From Halomicroarcula saliterrae (GTDB lineage Archaea > Halobacteriota > Halobacteria > Halobacteriales > Haloarculaceae), in contig NZ_JAMQON010000001.1 of the NCBI RefSeq assembly GCF_031624395.1, positions 1,054,001 through 1,118,000 on the forward strand: 64,000 bases of DNA. Reading direction: 5' to 3'. Numbering within the stretch: position 1 is the first letter of the stretch; each line of letters starts with the position of its first letter. The position numbers and the translations under genes are program-made. This document shows, one piece after another, positions 26,073-36,790 of the stretch. The notes below the pieces were generated by a model. The model was not told the DNA's origin, searched no databases, and worked only from the letters and a program-made list of their open reading frames with translations.

Positions 26073-28334
26073 ATGAAACTCTCAGTCAAACCACTCAAAC
26101 AGAAAGACGCAGGGCGCGGCCTCGCGGCCATCGACCGGGCCGCGATGGACGAGATGGACCTCGAGAACGGCGACTACATCGTCCTCGAAGGCAAGAACCG
26201 AGCGGTAGCGCGGGTATGGCCGGGCTACCCCGAAGACGACGGCAACGGCATCGTCCGCATCGACGGCCAGCTCCGACAGGAGGCCGGCGTCGGTATCGAC
26301 GACAGCGTGACCGTCGAGAAGGCCGACGTCAAGCCCGCAAGCAGCGTGACGGTCGCCTTGCCCCAGAACCTCCGTGTCCGGGGCAACGTCGGCCCGATGA
26401 TTCGGAACAATCTCAGCGGTCAGGCCGTCACGCAGGGCCAGACCGTCCCCGTGAGCTTCGGCCTCGGCCCGCTCTCGTCGATGTCGGGCCAGAAGATCCC
26501 GCTCCGCATCGCCGAGACGGCTCCCTCCGGGACCGTCGTCATCACGGACTCGACCGAGATACAGGTCAGCGAGAAGCCGGCTGAACAGATACGCGAAGGC
26601 GAGGGCGCGGCCAGCCCCGAATCGCCCGACGTGACCTACGAGGACATCGGCGGGCTCGACGACGAGCTCGAACAGGTCCGCGAGATGATAGAGCTGCCCA
26701 TGCGCCACCCCGAGCTGTTCCAGCAGCTCGGCATCGAACCGCCGAAAGGCGTCCTGCTCCACGGCCCGCCGGGCACCGGTAAAACGCTGATGGCGAAGGC
26801 CGTCGCCAACGAGATAGACGCGTACTTCACGACCATCTCCGGCCCGGAGATCATGTCGAAGTACTACGGCGAGAGCGAGGAACAGCTCCGTGAGGTCTTC
26901 GAGGAGGCCGAGGAGAACGCCCCCGCCATCGTCTTCATCGACGAGATAGACTCCATCGCCCCCAAACGAGGCGAGACGCAGGGTGACGTCGAACGGCGCG
27001 TCGTCGCCCAGCTGCTCTCCCTGATGGACGGGCTCGAAGAGCGCGGCCAGGTCATCGTCATCGGCGCGACCAACCGCGTCGACGCCATCGACCCCGCACT
27101 CCGCCGCGGTGGCCGCTTCGACCGCGAGATCGAGATCGGCGTCCCGGACAAGGAGGGCCGCAAGGAGATCCTGCAGGTCCACACCCGCGGGATGCCCCTC
27201 TCGGAGGCGATCGACCTCGACAGCTACGCCGAGAACACCCACGGCTTCGTCGGCGCCGACCTGTCGTCGCTGACGAAGGAGTCGGCGATGAACGCGCTCC
27301 GGCGCATCCGCCCCGAGCTCGACCTCGAATCCGAGGAGATCGACGCCGAGGTCCTGGAGAAGCTGGAGATCAGCGACGACGACATGAAGGACGCGATGAA
27401 GGGCATCGAGCCCTCCGCACTCCGCGAGGTCTTCGTCGAAGTCCCCGAGGTCACGTGGGACTCCGTCGGCGGTCTCGAAGACACCAAGGAGCGGCTCCGC
27501 GAGACCATCCAGTGGCCTCTGGAGTACGGCTCCGTCTTCGAGGCGATGGACCTCAACGCCGCGAAAGGCGTCCTGCTGTACGGTCCGCCGGGCACGGGGA
27601 AGACCCTGCTCGCGAAGGCCGTCGCCAACGAGGCCCAGTCGAACTTCATCTCCGTGAAGGGGCCCGAGCTGCTGAACAAGTTCGTGGGCGAGTCCGAGAA
27701 GGGCGTCCGCGAAGTGTTCGCCAAGGCCCGGGAGAACGCCCCGACGGTGGTGTTCTTCGACGAGATAGACTCCATCGCCACCGAACGCGGTGGCGGCACC
27801 ACCGACTCCGGTGTCGGCGAGCGGGTCGTCTCCCAGCTGCTGACCGAACTCGACGGCATCGAGGAGATGGAGGACGTGGTCGTCGTCGCGACGACGAACC
27901 GGCCCGACCTCATCGACAGCGCCTTGCTGCGCCCGGGCCGGCTGGACCGCCACGTCCACGTCCCGGTGCCCGACGAAGAGGCCCGACGGGCCATCTTCTC
28001 GGTCCACACGCGCGATAAGCCACTGGCCGACGGCGTCGACCTCAACAGTCTGGCCCGCCGGACCGACGGCTACGTCGGCGCCGACATCGAGGCCGTCTGC
28101 CGCGAGGCGTCGATGGCCGCGACCCGGGAGTTCATCAACAGCGTCGACCCCGAGGACATCGGTGACTCGGTGAGCAACGTCCGGGTGACGATGGACCACT
28201 TCGAGCACGCGCTCGACGAGGTCGGCCCCAGCGTCACGGACGAGACCAAGGAGCGCTACGACGAGATCGAACAGCGCTTCGACACCGCCGAACCAGAACT
28301 GGAAGAGGACAAGGTCGGCCGGACCTTCCAGTAG
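26073..28334 (+). CDS. Cdc48/VAT AAA+ ATPase
   Basis: A 753-residue double-ring AAA+ unfoldase. The N-domain has the double-psi-barrel part [21 protein letters not shown]1 has GPPGTGKT and [15 protein letters not shown]2 has GPPGTGKT and [14 protein letters not shown]. Both have arginine fingers in the [13 protein letters not shown] blocks. It unfolds proteins for the proteasome. The ATG at 26073 follows a strong purine-rich RBS (gaggaggagg) inside the preceding gene's end. The C-terminus ends in KVGRTFQ rather than the eukaryotic tail. Its last 186 bp are the source of the copy at 32281-32374. Confidence 0.97.
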
Positions 28335-28457
28335 GACCGGCCGCCGCGGTGCAGACACGTCCCGACCGTCGCCGAGAGCCCCACAGGCACCGAAGTCACT
28401 GTGACGCAACTTCGGCCTGTGCGGTGTCAGTAGGGGGGAATCGGCCCGGAATCCCCG

Positions 28458-29438
28458 TCAGTCGGCTATCGGACCACCCATCCATTTCGTGACGCGAGCC
28501 GCCAGCGTCTTGCCGACGAGGTCGGGACAGGCGGATTCGTCGACGCGGCTGGACCAGCCGGACCGGACCTGTTTTGCACATGATACTATGTCGTCGATCA
28601 CAGCCTCGTCGCGCTCTCGTTTTCGACGGGCAGTCACCTCGTTATAGAACCCCTCCCGGCGGTCCTCGTGGATGTCCGCAGCGTCGTCCATGAACCAGAG
28701 GAGGCGCCCGAACTCCTCCAGCCAGTCCAGATGGACCCGATAGCGGCCCGCGCTGAACGTCGGCGTCGCGAGCCAGGCGGGCAGCCCGATGACGACGAAC
28801 GGGTACGACGAGGTGATACGGTTCGTCTCCGCCGTATCGACGCCGGTGACGGAGGCGCGCTCGGCCCGGTACATCTTCTCGACCATCTCGTCGTGTTTCC
28901 GTCGGACCTCGGGTCGGTCACCCGCGTGAGGGAGGGCCGTGAGTTCGTGGTAGTAGTCCGCGAGGATTCGCGTGAAACATCGGTCCAACCCGCTCGCGAG
29001 GTAGTCGTACAGCGACGTGAGCGGTCTGATTCCGGTCATCGCCACCAGTTGCCCCGGTTTCGACAGCACCCGCCGGTGGTCGTAGCCGTCGTCGACCAGC
29101 CAGTCGAAGTGGGCGACGTGGTAGATCATGTTGGCCCCGAGTCGGCCCACCCGCTCCCTGTTCTCCGGCGAGATATCCAGGGGTGCCGCGAGATACTGCC
29201 CGGTGATGAACCCGGAGCCAGTCTGTAGGTGGTGGTCCTCTTCACGGCGGACCTCTCGGAGCTGGGACGTGACGTCCTCCCAGTCGCTGCCCAGTGAATC
29301 ACGCATGCGCTCGTACTCCCGGGCGCCGACGTCCTTGACGCCGGAGAACCACTCTTCCCACTCGGCAGTGGAGAGGATCAGGCCCGCCGCGTCCAGTTCC
29401 GCCTTGAGGCGCTGCTGGAACTCGGACTGCTGGCTCAC
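28458..29438 (-). CDS. Class-I isoprenoid synthase-like enzyme
   Basis: A 326-residue all-helical protein. The segment LLWFMDDAADIHEDRREGFY (about residues 250-269) resembles the Asp-rich helix of class-I isoprenoid synthases. A second acidic patch (DWLVDDGYD, about 112-120) and a KMYRAERASVTG helix (about 188-199) fit the fold seen in the loosely defined 'class 1 isoprenoid biosynthesis enzyme' family, which in bacteria often sits in natural-product clusters. Substrate unknown. It is the leftmost gene of the island between the two cdc48 tails and faces away from the 29717 gene across 278 bp that includes an AT-rich tract. Confidence 0.55.
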   Translation of the reverse strand: MSQQSEFQQRLKAELDAAGLILSTAEWEEWFSGVKDVGAREYERMRDSLGSDWEDVTSQLREVRREEDHHLQTGSGFITGQYLAAPLDISPENRERVGRLGANMIYHVAHFDWLVDDGYDHRRVLSKPGQLVAMTGIRPLTSLYDYLASGLDRCFTRILADYYHELTALPHAGDRPEVRRKHDEMVEKMYRAERASVTGVDTAETNRITSSYPFVVIGLPAWLATPTFSAGRYRVHLDWLEEFGRLLWFMDDAADIHEDRREGFYNEVTARRKRERDEAVIDDIVSCAKQVRSGWSSRVDESACPDLVGKTLAARVTKWMGGPIAD

Positions 29439-29716
29439 GACCGCCCACCTCCGTTCCCGCAGGCGGTCAGTGCCAGACCGAGTGGTTGCAGGGTTCTTGA
29501 CTGTCCGTCAGCGTCGTGATGGAGCCGTACGCAGTGAGCCATTGTGTCTGCTTCTGTCTACGCACTGACACCCACGAAAATCTAAAGTATTTTTATTGAA
29601 AATCCAACTATCAGTTCCGGATTTCGTGGCGGTGGGCAGGGACGCCGAAATAGATATGTTTGCCGATTTTCATATACAAAATTATTATTACTGCTGGGGC
29701 ACGGGAATAAACTGCC
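29439..29716. promoter_or_regulatory. AT-rich divergent control region of the island
   Basis: The left half is GC-rich. From about 29570 to 29690 the sequence is far more AT-rich than the core (for example taaagtatttttattg at about 29583-29598 and acaaaattattattac at about 29676-29691). The second tract lies about 25-40 nt before the ATG at 29717 and is its likely promoter. The first may drive the isoprenoid-like gene with a long leader. Confidence 0.5.
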
Positions 29717-30583
29717 ATGGGACTGATAGACCAACTCCAGAACGATGCGTACACCGGGGAGAACAGATGTTCGGCCTGTACGGCGGTCAACACCGTCCTC
29801 GCGCTCGTCGGTGCGGTTCTCGTCGACCGTACCAGTCGGCCACTCATCGGGCGGCGCCGGGCACGGGGTCTGGCGCTTGCCACCCTCGCGATTTCCGGCC
29901 TGTCGATCTGGATTCGGGGGTACCTGGTGCCGAAGACACCGGAACTCACAAAGGAGTACATGCCCCCCTGGATGCTCGCGTGGTTCGACAAGGAGCCGTT
30001 CGAGCCCGACGCCGAGCTAGCCGACGAGGAACGGGAGGCGTTGGGCGACCCCATCGACACTGAGGAGTATCTACTGGACCACGGCGTCGTCACCGCCGAG
30101 GCAGACGGGCAAGACTACGTGATGACCGAGGAGTTCCAGTCGGCCTGGGAGGCCAAACTCGAGGCGCTCGAGGACTGGCCGGACGCCGAATCGGATCCGG
30201 ACGTCGAGCCGGTCCTCGACCTATTTCAGGGGGACTGGTCGAACGACGACGTGGAGTCCCCACGGCTGGACGTCGACGACCACCGGGTCGCGATCATGTA
30301 TCCCGACGGCACCCAGAGCCTCTACTGGCCCTCGTTGACAGCTGTCGAGGCCGACCTGGTGACTGGCGCGGTCCTCCAGGCGTGGGACGAGGAGTGGGAC
30401 GACCTCGACACGTACCAGCGTGCCAAGGTCTTCCAGTCGGTGCGAATCTTCATCGAGACGTGTCCGGACGGCGACGAAACCGTCGTCGGTGAAGACACCG
30501 TGGAGTCCTGCTGCTCGGAACACGAGGTCGCGACAGTGGAGTGTACCGACAGCGGCGACCGACTGGCCGAACTGCCGGCCTAG
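29717..30583 (+). CDS. Two-helix membrane protein with CxxC and CC motifs, function unknown
   Basis: A 288-residue protein. The N-terminus MGLIDQLQNDAYTGENRC carries a CSAC pair at about 18-21. Two transmembrane helices follow (about 22-40 and 49-70), then a short PELTKEYMPPWMLAWFDKEP segment and a large acidic cytosolic domain. The C-terminus has further cysteines (FIETC, ESCCSEH, VECTD). The Cys/His arrangement suggests a redox or metal-binding role. I recall similar haloarchaeal proteins with the same N-terminus but no assigned function. It stands between the isoprenoid-like enzyme and the Tat-exported peptides. Confidence 0.65.
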   Translation: MGLIDQLQNDAYTGENRCSACTAVNTVLALVGAVLVDRTSRPLIGRRRARGLALATLAISGLSIWIRGYLVPKTPELTKEYMPPWMLAWFDKEPFEPDAELADEEREALGDPIDTEEYLLDHGVVTAEADGQDYVMTEEFQSAWEAKLEALEDWPDAESDPDVEPVLDLFQGDWSNDDVESPRLDVDDHRVAIMYPDGTQSLYWPSLTAVEADLVTGAVLQAWDEEWDDLDTYQRAKVFQSVRIFIETCPDGDETVVGEDTVESCCSEHEVATVECTDSGDRLAELPA

Positions 30584-30914
30584 GTGCCCTCGCTGGCCGT
30601 CGGGCCGGTTCGGCCACGCCAGTTTTCCTCCGTGTGGCAGTCCCCGACGGGCCCGTCTCAGCGCCCACGGCCCTGTCCCTCGCCAGCTTCTGTCGTGTCG
30701 CTGCGATGGACTCGCTTCCTTGTGCCACGTGGGCCTTCGGAGCAGTGCCGTCAGGATAGTAAACCGGGGTGGTGGCCCCTCTGCAATTCTTCGCGGGGGG
30801 CGTCCGTCCGCCCCTTGCGGGCCGCCGTGTCCGTGAGTCACCTACCGACGCAGCCGGCCACCGACGGATTCGTGGTCTGCCGAATCAACCGTTCGCCGAG
30901 GGACCGTGGCGGTG
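30584..30914. other. GC-rich intergenic element, no gene supported
   Basis: Open frames here lack acidic halophilic composition. A hairpin-forming stretch (GGGGGGCG around 30797, CGCCCC around 30810) and a GCCAC...GTGGC pair (about 30614-30640) suggest structured DNA or RNA. It looks like a haloarchaeal intergenic repeat, but no second copy lies in the window. Confidence 0.3.
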
Positions 30915-30927
30915 TTCTCAGTAGTGG

Positions 30928-31218
30928 TCAGTAGAACCCGTTTCCTCCTAGATCTGCGGGCACACACTCGCAAACAAGTTCAGGGGGTTCACCATATGGA
31001 TTGCTAATATACCCCTCCTTCTCACACTCGTCGCCATCACAGTCGTCTGGTGAACAATCAGGGCACAAATCATCCGTGTTGCTAGCGCTAGCGGTGCCCG
31101 TCGCGGCAGTGCCGACAACACCCATCGCGGTTGTCGCAGCGGCCGTCCGTTTGAGCATATCGCGACGACTTGTTTGACCTGCCTGTTCGTCCGAACCGTC
31201 TTTCGGTTTCGCTGTCAT
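30928..31218 (-). CDS. Tat-exported small Cys-rich protein, copy 1
   Basis: A 96-residue precursor. Twin-arginine signal SRRDMLKRTAAATTAMGVVG with probable cleavage after TASA (about residue 45). The mature part of about 50 residues has six cysteines in the order C-x2-C-x4-C-x4-C...C-x-C, many acidic residues, and ends GNGFY. A secreted peptide such as a microhalocin, a metal-binding peptide or a modified natural-product precursor is possible; none is proven. The start is set at the ATG at 31218, since the upstream in-frame part lies in the promoter. A TATA-like gatattaaata lies at about 31244-31254. Confidence 0.7.
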   Translation of the reverse strand: MTAKPKDGSDEQAGQTSRRDMLKRTAAATTAMGVVGTAATGTASASNTDDLCPDCSPDDCDGDECEKEGYISNPYGEPPELVCECVPADLGGNGFY

Positions 31219-31243
31219 GATACATATACACCAATTCAATAAT

Positions 31244-31254
31244 GATATTAAATA
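31244..31254 (-). promoter_or_regulatory. TATA-rich promoter of Cys-rich peptide copy 1
   Basis: The stretch gatattaaata lies about 26-36 nt before the start codon and is identical at 31717-31727 upstream of copy 2. Confidence 0.55.
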
Positions 31255-31351
31255 ATATTCCATTGACGATAATGCGATTTATATCGGTGGCTATGTCGTA
31301 CGCTCGAACGCGCCACCTGTCTCGCCGCGACGAGTAGCTACGAGACCGGAT

Positions 31352-31383
31352 GAGAATCAGGCGCTGAAAGCGCCCCGGTTCTC
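31352..31383. terminator. Hairpin 3' of Cys-rich peptide copy 2
   Basis: Inner stem GGCGCT/AGCGCC with a GAA loop, extended by GAGAA/TTCTC, placed 9 nt beyond the stop of copy 2 on the minus strand. A second identical hairpin is at 31825-31856. It could be a terminator or a processing element; there is no long T run after it. Confidence 0.4.
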
Positions 31384-31391
31384 AGGAGTGG

Positions 31392-31691
31392 TCAGTAGAA
31401 TCCGTCGTCTTCATACTTTTCGGGGGGTTCACAAAAGCACCCTCCCATCCCGGGCCAAAGTATAGGGTCATAATACTTACTCACACACTCGTCGGCATCA
31501 CAGTCTTCTGGTCCACACTCAGGGCAATCACGATCTCTGTCAGGGATATTATGGACCGCGCTAGCGTTGCCCGTCGCGGCAGTGCCGACAACACCCATCG
31601 CGGTTGTCGCAGTGGCCGTCCGTTTGAGCATCTCTCGACGACTTGTCTGACCTGCCTGTTCGTCCGAGTCGTCCTTCAGTTTCGCCGTCAT
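31392..31691 (-). CDS. Tat-exported small Cys-rich protein, copy 2
   Basis: A 99-residue paralogue of the gene at 30928-31218. The Tat signal is almost identical (SRREMLKRTATATTAMGVVG, cleavage probably after ASA). The mature part keeps the six cysteines (DCPECGPEDCDADEC, then GCFC) and the closing DGFY, but the spacer between the Cys blocks differs in sequence. Conservation of cysteines and ends with a diverging middle suggests selection on a folded secreted peptide. Start at the ATG at 31691, with the same promoter as copy 1. Confidence 0.7.
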   Translation of the reverse strand: MTAKLKDDSDEQAGQTSRREMLKRTATATTAMGVVGTAATGNASAVHNIPDRDRDCPECGPEDCDADECVSKYYDPILWPGMGGCFCEPPEKYEDDGFY

Positions 31692-31824
31692 GATGCATAT
31701 ACACCAATTCGTTAATGATATTAAATAACATTCCATTGACGATAATGCGATTTATATCGATGGCTAAATATTACTCTCGAAAGCGCCACCTGTCCCGCCG
31801 CGACGAGTAGCTACGAGACCAAAT

Positions 31825-31856
31825 GAGAATCAGGCGCTGAAAGCGCCCCGGTTCTC
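31825..31856. terminator. Second copy of the unit hairpin
   Basis: The same GGCGCT/AGCGCC hairpin as at 31352-31383, now with no peptide gene to its right. It marks the remnant boundary of a lost third unit. Confidence 0.35.
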
Positions 31857-32070
31857 GGGAGTGGCTCGCGGGCAACGGGACCGGACGTACGGTGGGGGAG
31901 TTTCAGTCCTTCGGACCATGCGAACGGCCCGCCGTTCCGTGAGCGGGGTCGGCACTGAGTCAGTCCGGCGACGGCGCTGCACGACACCGACGCGTACCGC
32001 CCTGTGAGTCCCGTGGCCGAGAGGGCCACACAGCCCCGACGCTCCGGCCAGGGAGGCCTGTCACACCATC

Positions 32071-32274
32071 GGTCGGAGAGTCCGGCAAGCCACCTATTTA
32101 ACGACTCCGTCCCCACTGTCCGGTTGGCTGAACACCGCAGGCGGTCACGCCGAGGAAGACCACGACGGAGAGCATCACGAACACCGGAGTCGGTGGCCCC
32201 GCATCGCGGCCGTCAGAGCCAGTACGCTGTATCTGGGGCCGAGTTCTACTTCGTGGGACTCGACCTCGTGCCGC
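32071..32274 (+). pseudogene. Decayed 5' fragment of a coxC-like gene with its promoter
   Basis: It aligns with 34870-35077, the promoter and first about 50 codons of the intact coxC gene. The matching blocks are a tatttaac TATA region, the gt(c/t)(a/c)ggttggctgaac start region without the ATG, cacgccgaggaagaccacgac, and the FVGLDLVP segment at 32251-32274. The reading frame is broken early, but the last 20 codons read in frame (EFYFVGLDLVPLF) into the following cdc48 tail. Divergence from coxC is much greater than that of the adjoining cdc48 piece. Confidence 0.75.
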
Positions 32275-32280
32275 TTTTCA

Positions 32281-32374
32281 AGGACATCGGTGACTCGGTG
32301 AGCAACGTCCGGGTGACGATGGACCAGTTCGAGCACGCGCTCGACGAGATCGGCCGGACCTTCCAGTAGGACCG
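32281..32374 (+). pseudogene. Copy of the cdc48 3' end with 93-bp in-frame deletion
   Basis: 32281-32355 matches 28153-28227 at 73 of 75 positions, and 32356-32374 is identical to 28321-28339, including the stop and following bases. The missing 93 bp lie between two direct repeats GTCGGCC in cdc48. The encoded tail is [20 protein letters not shown], then LDEIGRTFQ. It cannot work alone and marks the right edge of the island. Confidence 0.85.
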
Positions 32375-32494: not shown

Positions 32495-33289
32495 ATGAGT
32501 GCCCTCCCAGGAGTAGCACTGGCCGGAAGCATGTTCGACGCCGTCTTCCGGCCCGAACGGTTCGTCTCGGTCCGCCGGGAAACGGCGTTCCGAACGAGGC
32601 TCGGCCTCGCGAGACAGGTGGTCGGCCTCGTCGCGTTCTACGTCTGGAACGTGTTCCTGTACGCGCTCCCGCTGACGCTGGCCGGCATCGGATTCACGTC
32701 GACCGCGTCGGCCCCGGAGTGGTTCGCCGCCCTCGCGCCCGCGACTGTGGGTGACCCCGCCGGCCTCTGGCGGCTGCTCGTCGGCCTGTTCCAGAACTCG
32801 GCGTTTCTGACTATCGCGACGGCGGTCGTGCTCGTCTCGTATCACGGGGCAGTGCTCGTGAGCAGGGGTTCTGGCGGCCTACTGGAGAGCGTCCATACGG
32901 TCGTCTACACCACGGGCGCGTATCTGGCGGCCATGTTCACCGGGGTCATGTTCCTGAGCACGACGCCGGGGCTGGAGACCGCTGAGACGCTCGTGTTGAA
33001 CGTCCAGAAGGCCGGTTTCTACGCGGTCATCGACTGGCTCGGTGCCGATGTCGCCCTCCCCGGCGGCCGTCCGGGCCAGCTGGTCGTGGGCGGCCTCACG
33101 ACGACCGGCGAGCTGATTCTGGCGCTGCTCGTCGTCGCCAGCCTCTACTTCGTGTACTCGCTGTACCTCGGTGCCCGTATCAACCACGGGATGGACCGCC
33201 TGCAAAGCACCGCTGTGCTGGTCGCCATCTCCGCGGCCCCGGTCATCTACATCGCCGGCTCCGTGGTGTACTCCACCGTATTCCTCTAA
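32495..33289 (+). CDS. YIP1-like multi-pass membrane protein
   Basis: A 264-residue protein with about five transmembrane helices. An N-terminal FRPERFVSVRRETAFR amphipathic stretch is common in prokaryotic YIP1-family proteins. The intramembrane residues carry no obvious catalytic group. It lies 4 bp before the PH-domain gene and is probably cotranscribed with it. An AT-rich promoter (ttaattataattgg, about 32460-32473) lies 22-35 nt before the start. Function unknown. Confidence 0.65.
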   Translation: MSALPGVALAGSMFDAVFRPERFVSVRRETAFRTRLGLARQVVGLVAFYVWNVFLYALPLTLAGIGFTSTASAPEWFAALAPATVGDPAGLWRLLVGLFQNSAFLTIATAVVLVSYHGAVLVSRGSGGLLESVHTVVYTTGAYLAAMFTGVMFLSTTPGLETAETLVLNVQKAGFYAVIDWLGADVALPGGRPGQLVVGGLTTTGELILALLVVASLYFVYSLYLGARINHGMDRLQSTAVLVAISAAPVIYIAGSVVYSTVFL

Positions 33290-33293
33290 CAGC

Positions 33294-33812
33294 ATGACGA
33301 CACAAGTTCATCGACTGACGGACGCATCGGAGGACGAGGAGCCAGCCGACGCGAGCGGCGACGAGCTGCTGCGAGTGACACCGAGCACGAAGCCAGTCCT
33401 CGTCAGACTCGTGGTGATTGTCGTCGCCGGCCTCGCGGCCATCGGGGTCTTCTTGCGGAGGCCGGAGCTTCTGGGCGACCGAGAGGTGACCAACATCGCG
33501 CTGCTTGCCACTCAGCTGCTCGTGGGTATCGGTGTCGTCAGACAGCTGTCCCAGTACGTCGTCCTCCGGCACACGGAGTACGTCGTCACGCCCACCGTGG
33601 TGACCACGACCTACGAACTGCTGGGGCGGTCGAAGGCCCGACAGGTGCCCTTCGAGCGCGTCCGGAGTCACGAACTGAACCAGAGTCGCGTGGAGAACGC
33701 GCTGGACCACGGCACGATAATGCTCAATCAGGGACTGGGTGACCTCCGGCTCCGGAACGTCCGGGAGCCCTTCGACGTCTACGACGTCATCAAGGAACAG
33801 GCCCAGACGTAG
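33294..33812 (+). CDS. PH-domain membrane protein (YdbS-like)
   Basis: A 172-residue protein. A disordered N-terminus is followed by two helices (about residues 36-54 and 65-82) and then a bacterial PH domain (YVVTPTVVTTTYELLGRSKA, VPFERVRSHELNQSRVENAL, GTIMLNQGLG). The RV-x-H/QSR strand-turn motif is typical of bPH2. The start at 33294 follows the YIP1-like stop by 4 bp; the longer in-frame extension lies inside that gene. Function unknown. Confidence 0.75.
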   Translation: MTTQVHRLTDASEDEEPADASGDELLRVTPSTKPVLVRLVVIVVAGLAAIGVFLRRPELLGDREVTNIALLATQLLVGIGVVRQLSQYVVLRHTEYVVTPTVVTTTYELLGRSKARQVPFERVRSHELNQSRVENALDHGTIMLNQGLGDLRLRNVREPFDVYDVIKEQAQT

Positions 33813-33882
33813 GGAGCGTCGCTCCGGGCCGAGATAATTTCAGTTGCAGAAAACTTATTCCAACGGGATTTGCCTTTCCGGT

Positions 33883-34809
33883 ATGGACCGGAGGGACTAC
33901 ATCGCCGCGACTGCGGGATTCCTTGCGGCCGGGTCCGCTGGCTGTCTCCGACTCTCCGCCGACGAGGCCGAGACACCCACGGGGACCGACGTCGCGCCGG
34001 GAAGCGAGCGCGAGACGCCGACGGACGCGGCGGCAGACTCTACCGAAACCCCGGCACAGGAGGGGGCTGGCGGTCAGACGGACACGGGACCCGATATCAC
34101 CCTGTCGGGGAACGTCCCCGGCTGGGCCGGCTGGATTCCGGCCGACGTAGTCGGTGACGGCCGAGTCTCGTCGACGAACTACGAGCGCGCCAGGGAAACG
34201 TGGCCCGAGGGGGCGCTCGAACAGCCAAACGCCGGCGTCGCAGAGCGGTACGGGACTGTGACGCGGTTGACGGAGGTGACGGGCGACGACGCCCATCTGT
34301 CGGTGTATCGGGGCTCTTTCGACACCGAGGCTATCTTCGGGGCCTACGGCGAGACGCCCGAGCAGACGGACTCCTACAGGGGATTGAACGTGATCGACAA
34401 GTCCGAGTTCGTCGCGTTCGACGGGAGCACGCTGGTGTACACTCGCCCCTACGAGTCGCTCGACACGAGATACGGGGAGCGCGCGTCGCTGGGGACGACC
34501 GACGACTGGGAGGCAGTACTGTCTGTGACTGCCGACAGCCCGTGGCTGACCGCGTCTACGGGTGCGCCCGAACCGCTCGACGAGGGGGAGCTGGCGGCGG
34601 ACGTCCGCGCGAACGCGACGGCGCGCAGCTACGGGCAGGGGACCCGGCAGTCGGTGACCTATCTCCTCTTTGACTCCGCCGCGAACGCACGGGCCGTCGA
34701 GGAGAACAACCTCGCGACACTGGTCTCGGAGCTCGTCCCGAACGCCGCGGAGCTGGACACGCTCGAACAGACCGACGAGGTCGTCCTCGTGCGGTTCAGT
34801 CGGACATAG
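33883..34809 (+). CDS. Lipoprotein of unknown function
   Basis: A 308-residue protein starting MDRRDYIAATAGFLAAGSAG with lipobox GSAGC. A Thr/Glu-rich tether of about 50 residues is followed by a folded domain with motifs GWAGWIPADVVGD, LSVYRGSFDTEAIFG and SYGQGTRQSVTYLLFDSA. No catalytic residues recognised. It should be anchored on the outer membrane face. The ATG at 33883 is chosen because the signal peptide begins there; 33844 would add a non-signal stretch. A T-rich tract (aacttattccaac, about 33853) lies upstream. Confidence 0.68.
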   Translation: MDRRDYIAATAGFLAAGSAGCLRLSADEAETPTGTDVAPGSERETPTDAAADSTETPAQEGAGGQTDTGPDITLSGNVPGWAGWIPADVVGDGRVSSTNYERARETWPEGALEQPNAGVAERYGTVTRLTEVTGDDAHLSVYRGSFDTEAIFGAYGETPEQTDSYRGLNVIDKSEFVAFDGSTLVYTRPYESLDTRYGERASLGTTDDWEAVLSVTADSPWLTASTGAPEPLDEGELAADVRANATARSYGQGTRQSVTYLLFDSAANARAVEENNLATLVSELVPNAAELDTLEQTDEVVLVRFSRT

Positions 34810-34924
34810 GGGCGGTGGTGACCGTCGGCGCCTGTCGCTACCCACGGCCGGGCGAGAGCAAACCGGGTGGGCCGGAGACCCGAGCAAGCCAGTTATTTAA
34901 CCACCGCGTCCCCACCCTAGTCCA

Positions 34925-35743
34925 ATGTCAGGTTGGTTGAGCACAGGTGGCGGCCACGCCGAGGACGGCGGAGAGGAACACGACCACAGCAGTTACTGGC
35001 CGCTGATAGCAGCCGTCGGGGCGGGAATGCTGTATCTCGGTGCCGGCTTCTTCTTCGTCGGCCTCGACCTCGTCCCGGCGGTACTACCTATCGGCCTCGC
35101 CGGGGCCGGCGTCGTCGGGCTGCTGACCGGCCTGTTCGGGTGGGCCTACGAGGCCTTTATGGCGCCCGCCAGCGGCCACGGCGGGAGCGCGGACGTCTAC
35201 ACAACGACGATGATTCTGTTTCTCGTCTCCGACGTGGCGACGTTCTCGGCGGGGTTCATCTACTTCGCGTTCATCCGGTCGGCGGCGTTCTGGCCGCCCG
35301 ACCACCTGCCGCCCCTGCTGGGGTCGCTGGTCGCCATCAACACCACGCTGCTGGTCGCGAGTAGCGTCACCATCCACTACAGCCACGAGGCCCTCGTGGA
35401 GGGCGACCAGCGGAAGTTCCTGGGGCTGCTGGGCGCGACGCTGGGGCTCGGGGTCCTCTTTCTCGGCGGCCAGATCTTCGAGTACTACGAGCTGCTCGTC
35501 GTCGACGGCTTCTCGCTGTCGACTGGCGTCCTCGGGAGCGCGTTCTACGGGCTGACGGGGCTCCACGGCCTCCACGTCGCGCTGGGCGTGCTCCTCATCG
35601 CCATCGCCTTCGGCCGCTCGCTGCGGGGCGAGTACGGTCCACAACACGACACGGCCATCCGGACCACGTCGCTGTACTGGCACTTCGTCGACGCCGTCTG
35701 GCTGTTCCTCGTGGTCGTGCTCTACGTCGGCGCGACGATATAG
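34925..35743 (+). CDS. coxC: Haem-copper oxidase subunit III
   Basis: A 272-residue seven-helix protein. Conserved subunit III motifs include TFSAGFIYFAFIRSAAFWPP, HYSHEALVEGDQRKFLG and GLHGLHVALG, with the final EYGPQHDTAIRTTSLYWHFV and DAVWLFLVV. It stabilises proton pumping in the terminal oxidase. It is the left end of the oxidase locus (coxA 36792-39059, coxB 39223-40050). A TATA element (ttatttaac, about 34894-34902) lies about 27 nt before the ATG. Its 5' part is the source or relative of the decayed copy at 32071-32274. Confidence 0.93.
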   Translation: MSGWLSTGGGHAEDGGEEHDHSSYWPLIAAVGAGMLYLGAGFFFVGLDLVPAVLPIGLAGAGVVGLLTGLFGWAYEAFMAPASGHGGSADVYTTTMILFLVSDVATFSAGFIYFAFIRSAAFWPPDHLPPLLGSLVAINTTLLVASSVTIHYSHEALVEGDQRKFLGLLGATLGLGVLFLGGQIFEYYELLVVDGFSLSTGVLGSAFYGLTGLHGLHVALGVLLIAIAFGRSLRGEYGPQHDTAIRTTSLYWHFVDAVWLFLVVVLYVGATI

Positions 35744-36280: not shown

Positions 36281-36790
36281 TCATTCCACGTTCGCCCTCT
36301 CCTCCAGCTCTATCAGCTTCCGGTAGATGGGCGGACTGAGAATGCCGATGAGGCCGAAGATGATAGCGAACACACCGAGCGGGAACTGCAGTTCCGGAGC
36401 GACGAAACAGGGGTTCTCCGCGACGACGGTCACGTAGTGCTGTTCGCCCTCGTAGGTGACGATGGAGCCGTTTCGGAAGGCGTTGCCGTTGGGGAACTCG
36501 CCCGTGACGCGGGCCTCCCCGACGGGGTCCTCGGTCGCGTTCACGAAGGCCTGTTGTTCCGACCGGGACAGCTCCTCGAACTGGAAGGTGGCCAGCTCCG
36601 GGTTCGTGGTGTTGAACCGCTGGGCGGTCTCCTCGGGCCCTTCGACGGCGATTGTCGGCTGGTTACAGGTCGTTATCTCGTCCTGAATGATGGCGTACCC
36701 GCCGGGCACCGCCCCGCCGATGCCGACAGCGACGAGGAGGACGCCGACGAACGGTGCGATGTAGGTGAACAGAATCGACTCGTCGCTCAT
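36281..36790 (-). CDS. Two-helix exported-domain protein linked to oxidase genes
   Basis: A 169-residue protein with one helix near the N-terminus (about 10-32) and one near the C-terminus (about 135-155) enclosing a loop of about 100 residues. The loop has three Cys (ITTCNQPTIAVEGPEE, NPCF) and repeated N-x-T/S sites, so it probably faces outside. The start overlaps or abuts the coxA stop, suggesting cotranscription. Role unknown; an oxidase accessory is plausible from position. Confidence 0.65.
   Translation of the reverse strand: MSDESILFTYIAPFVGVLLVAVGIGGAVPGGYAIIQDEITTCNQPTIAVEGPEETAQRFNTTNPELATFQFEELSRSEQQAFVNATEDPVGEARVTGEFPNGNAFRNGSIVTYEGEQHYVTVVAENPCFVAPELQFPLGVFAIIFGLIGILSPPIYRKLIELEERANVE

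Follow-up and report, generated by a model that had tools for sequence, protein, structure and literature searches.

How did the beginning of coxC come to stand in front of the end of cdc48 in this window, the whole 64,000-nucleotide stretch of Halomicroarcula saliterrae DNA that was analysed, and does the fusion represent a working gene, a trace of repeated recombination or the scar of one join? The initial annotation placed a decayed copy of the coxC promoter and about 50 codons at 32071-32274. A search of the organism's own genome bears this out and carries the similarity to 32280, or about 52 codons: segment 32071-32280 matches 34870-35077, the promoter and start of the resident coxC, at 71% by local alignment (E 2.5e-25). 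The agreement is well above chance, since the alignment score of 97 was not reached in any of 1000 shuffles (mean 16.3, sd 2.9; z = 28), and the chance-level similarity that would have refuted the annotation can be set aside. The features concerned are collected in Table 1.

Table 1. Features of the cdc48-coxC region, with positions in the window.
Feature	Position	Strand	Remarks
Intact cdc48 (AAA ATPase) from which the tail was copied	26073..28334	+	Pfam AAA (x2), CDC48_N, CDC48_2
Copied segment of the cdc48 tail	28153..28339	+	97% to 32281-32355; last 19 bases identical
Lineage-specific stretch, cdc48 to remnant	28340..32034	.	mostly without significant congener homologues
coxC remnant	32071..32280	+	promoter and ~52 codons; 71% to resident coxC, 81% to G022, 84% to G025
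Copy of the cdc48 3' end	32281..32374	+	93-bp in-frame deletion; stop codon retained
Genes for a membrane protein, a bPH_2 protein and a putative lipoprotein, after the remnant and before resident coxC	32495..34809	+	homologues flank coxC in G022
Resident intact coxC, divergent allele	34925..35743	+	Pfam COX3, E 5.9e-33; divergence in excess of neighbouring genes

The coxC-derived half retains a TATTTAA box in its promoter (32095-32101), and a 10-bp deletion has removed the A of the ATG, leaving CTG as codon 1 (32116-32118). A second deletion, of 1 bp at 32234/32235, is a frameshift that breaks the coxC frame upstream of the joint. The first membrane helix has changes at conserved residues, conserved glycines have been replaced, and about 80% of coxC is absent from the remnant. 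This lost 3' part was sought across the organism's own genome and is absent from it, the only matches being paralogues at 47% and 36%. The joint itself lies at 32280/32281, and no microhomology was seen there beyond about 1 nt. The continuous reading frame that had been described across the joint exists downstream of 32234/32235 but not upstream, where the coxC frame is interrupted and the ATG is gone. An open frame with a GTG start (32004-32369, 121 aa) does contain the final portion of the membrane helix that came from coxC, in frame with the C-terminal tail of Cdc48; its expression as a small peptide bearing this tail would be most surprising. Significant similarity to functional genes is thus combined with disabling lesions, and with its start codon lost, its frame shifted and its coxC part truncated the locus keeps its designation as a chimeric pseudogene. 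Judged from these letters, the coxC-cdc48 chimera appears to be a dead, decayed gene remnant and not a working gene.

The cdc48-derived half is as close to its source as the reported figure of about 97% implied: 32281-32355 agrees with 28153-28227 at 73/75 bases (97%), and 32356-32374 with 28321-28339 at 19/19. The gap of 93 bp between these blocks falls between two GGTCGGCC repeats of cdc48. The tail copy shares with this genome's cdc48 the private synonymous codons GTG AGC and CGG, and in a tree it clusters with that gene with support 97/99, a value obtained from an alignment that put the 93-bp deletion in the wrong place. Both observations point to a common lineage of the two tails, for which the private codons are firmer evidence than the tree support. 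The sequence that follows the two cdc48 stops gives weak and inconsistent hints on which tail is the original, the spacers being too variable. Between the flanks 3' of the two tails no similarity was found beyond GACCG, a comparison of little power given the variability of the relatives' spacers and the later inserts that may have replaced them. The spacer between the remnant and the next gene resembles the coxC spacer of G022 at chance level. Site-specific integration into the 3' end of cdc48 was a candidate, given the duplicated tail around 28340-32280, and was rejected: it leaves the coxC start at the joint unexplained, and no recombinase was identified, in the families searched, among the predicted genes within this segment.

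The initial annotation also held that the partner genes lie over 6 kb apart. In the present window 6.6 kb of extra genes do separate cdc48 from coxC, but the relatives show that the two are old neighbours. In seven of 12 congeneric loci (G009, G016, G019, G002, G017, G013, G010) coxC follows cdc48 directly on the same strand, in the order DUF7127 gene, cdc48, coxC and further cytochrome oxidase genes. An insert parts them in two further loci (G022, G025), and in the other three (G005, G030, G007) coxC is not beside cdc48. The separation in the window is a derived state, produced by later or haplotype-specific inserts. At the joint the start of the downstream gene is connected to the end of the upstream gene, on the same strand, and the two genes are ancestral neighbours. 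Such a reversal of the ancestral order is what a unit of about 0.5 kb would leave on being duplicated head to tail or exchanged unequally; the distance between the equivalent breakpoints in cdc48 and coxC is about 490 bp in G009 and 570 bp in G017.

Of the genes in the lineage-specific stretch between cdc48 and the remnant, the one at 29717-30583 has only distant congener homologues, and the one at 28458-29438 and the two Cys-rich genes have none of significance in other congeners. The former of these, 28458-29438 (- strand), encodes a 326-aa protein without a Pfam match and is absent from 31/31 congeneric genomes. Region 30914-31857 is a tandem duplication with a unit of about 470 bp (92% over 300 bp) that holds two small paralogous genes, 30928-31263 and 31392-31736, both on the - strand. 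Their products carry a twin-arginine-type signal and Cys-rich ends and are possibly secreted peptides; the sole other match to this pair among 146 family genomes is marginal (E 8.6e-4). In G022 (L036 4833-12564, continuing in L128) coxC is surrounded by a number of paralogues of 33883-34809, the putative lipoprotein gene, and the 32495/33294 gene pair lies downstream of coxC, not upstream, so the cdc48-coxC interval has undergone repeated rearrangement. The corresponding interval of G025 (L037 4280-7080) contains a transposase-like ORF and small ORFs, which amounts to another independent insertion at this site. G015 has an additional, incomplete coxC copy interrupted by a TAG (G015:C1:3529489-3529866), which may be a contig-end duplication. 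The coxC-cdc48 joint itself is absent from the other 145 family genomes searched.

The unequal identity of the two halves to their resident counterparts had been read as a difference in age. However, identity to the resident genes is unsuitable for dating, because the resident coxC is itself divergent, and it is for this reason that the coxC half looks old. Over the BLAST-aligned part the remnant is closer to relatives (G025 84%, G022 81%, G017 78%, G009 75%) than to the resident gene, and its coding part is 80-85% identical to four relatives versus 75% to the resident. Of the sites that separate remnant from resident, 17 have the remnant's base in the majority of the relatives and 8 the resident's, and 11 of the 17 are ancestral states that the resident has lost. 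A tree of the short 5' region admits more than one position for the remnant, as a sister relation of remnant and resident is not rejected (p-AU 0.106). Decay was counted in the coxC half at positions conserved among the four relatives, as changes found in the remnant alone, and in the cdc48 half by direct comparison with the organism's own cdc48. The counts are 7/105 and 2/94 (Fisher p = 0.18), or an overall decay of about 4-5%. Nothing in these sequences requires a difference in age between the halves, though with so few changes a modest one is possible; the low identity of the coxC half, and with it the supposed age gap, mainly reflects the divergence of the resident coxC.

Relative to the mutual divergence of the four relatives, the distance of the resident coxC from them exceeds that of cdc48, cox1, cox2 and the gene at 36281. 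Its position in the tree is as expected from the species tree, sister to the four-species clade, and it could be a fast-evolving native gene. Sliding identity along the gene hints that the 5' two thirds are more divergent, and the 5' tail of coxC varies within the genus. A homologous crossover within the resident gene was looked for, but both parts place alike in trees and the analysis pinned down no crossover point. The decay of the two halves is equal within error, yet the coding parts of remnant and resident coxC are only 75% identical. A decay of 4-5% is too small to explain a difference of 25-29%, and the two coxC copies were therefore non-identical when the joint formed, unless the resident has evolved several-fold faster. 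It follows that two diverged coxC alleles probably met in one cell.

In view of the above, we slightly favour the reading that the locus is the dead joint of a single illegitimate join between two haplotypes, of the duplication or unequal-exchange type, in a lineage whose ancestral order was cdc48 followed directly by coxC. Codon ~52 of coxC on one chromosome copy would have been joined to cdc48 on another, some 60 codons short of its stop, giving the junction that results when a unit of about 0.5 kb is duplicated head to tail or exchanged unequally. The chromosome copies would probably have come from different haplotypes that shared cdc48 and carried different coxC alleles. In one of them coxC would have followed cdc48 directly and resembled the coxC of the sister species; in the other, three genes would have stood between cdc48 and a divergent coxC. 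Respiration would have been kept working by the intact downstream coxC, and the truncated upstream copy would have been free to decay through loss of its start codon, a frameshift and a 93-bp slippage deletion. An exchange between two haplotypes through one join is proposed because the coxC alleles diverged while the cdc48 tails share a lineage. In the polyploid Haloferax volcanii, breaks are mended both through homologous recombination and through microhomology-mediated end joining (PMC7776575), and efficient intermolecular gene conversion equalises the chromosome copies (PMC8223754). By analogy, polyploidy, end joining and gene conversion would make such a join plausible in a haloarchaeon.

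Homology-facilitated illegitimate recombination, known from competent bacteria and E. coli (PMC3240628), could have brought in DNA that was homologous at one end, in coxC or cdc48, and illegitimately joined at the other, leaving the start of the recipient coxC fused to a cdc48 tail. A single event would then account for two divergent coxC alleles in one genome, and the variable order of the neighbourhood among relatives fits as well. However, with both cdc48 tails of the same lineage, the donor would need a foreign coxC and yet a nearly identical cdc48, and the crossover point could not be fixed; we regard this as a possible but rather doubtful origin. A tandem duplication confined to one genome, with the 5' end of the resident coxC then changing unusually fast and genes later inserted into both spacer copies, is the simplest source of the joint, and both the variable 5' tail of coxC in the genus and the 11 of 17 remnant-supporting sites at which the resident has lost the ancestral state speak for it. 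It is nevertheless improbable, as a functional resident coxC would have to change by about 20% while the remnant decays by about 4-5%. That two separate events struck one place, a recent cdc48 patch overwriting an old coxC fragment from a distant gene, as the raw identities of 71% versus 97% had suggested, is very unlikely given that the age gap vanishes with relatives as the reference (p 0.18) and that the genes were neighbours. Instead of at least two recombination events, a single join is sufficient, though the difference between the coxC alleles must be assumed as a second process.

Compared with known systems, the single join between haplotypes proposed here agrees with junctions of tandem duplications or unequal exchanges in the reversed gene order, the unit of about 0.5 kb and the intact copies on both sides. 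It differs in that the coxC copies are diverged alleles and that other genes now lie between the copies. Like other haloarchaeal gene remnants, the chimera is truncated and frameshifted, has lost its start codon and has an intact functional copy elsewhere, but it is built from two genes. With homology-facilitated illegitimate recombination it has in common one illegitimate joint beside homology and a divergent allele brought in, whereas a homologous end is not demonstrable here and the experiments were done in bacteria.

The coxC-cdc48 joint is a further example of a familiar genomic scar, essentially ordinary and of no wider consequence. It teaches that two halves can differ in their identity to resident genes without differing in age. 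For the organism and its relatives, the scar singles out the interval between cdc48 and coxC as a site of variation in Haloarcula, and it probably records the meeting of two diverged coxC alleles in one haloarchaeal genome.
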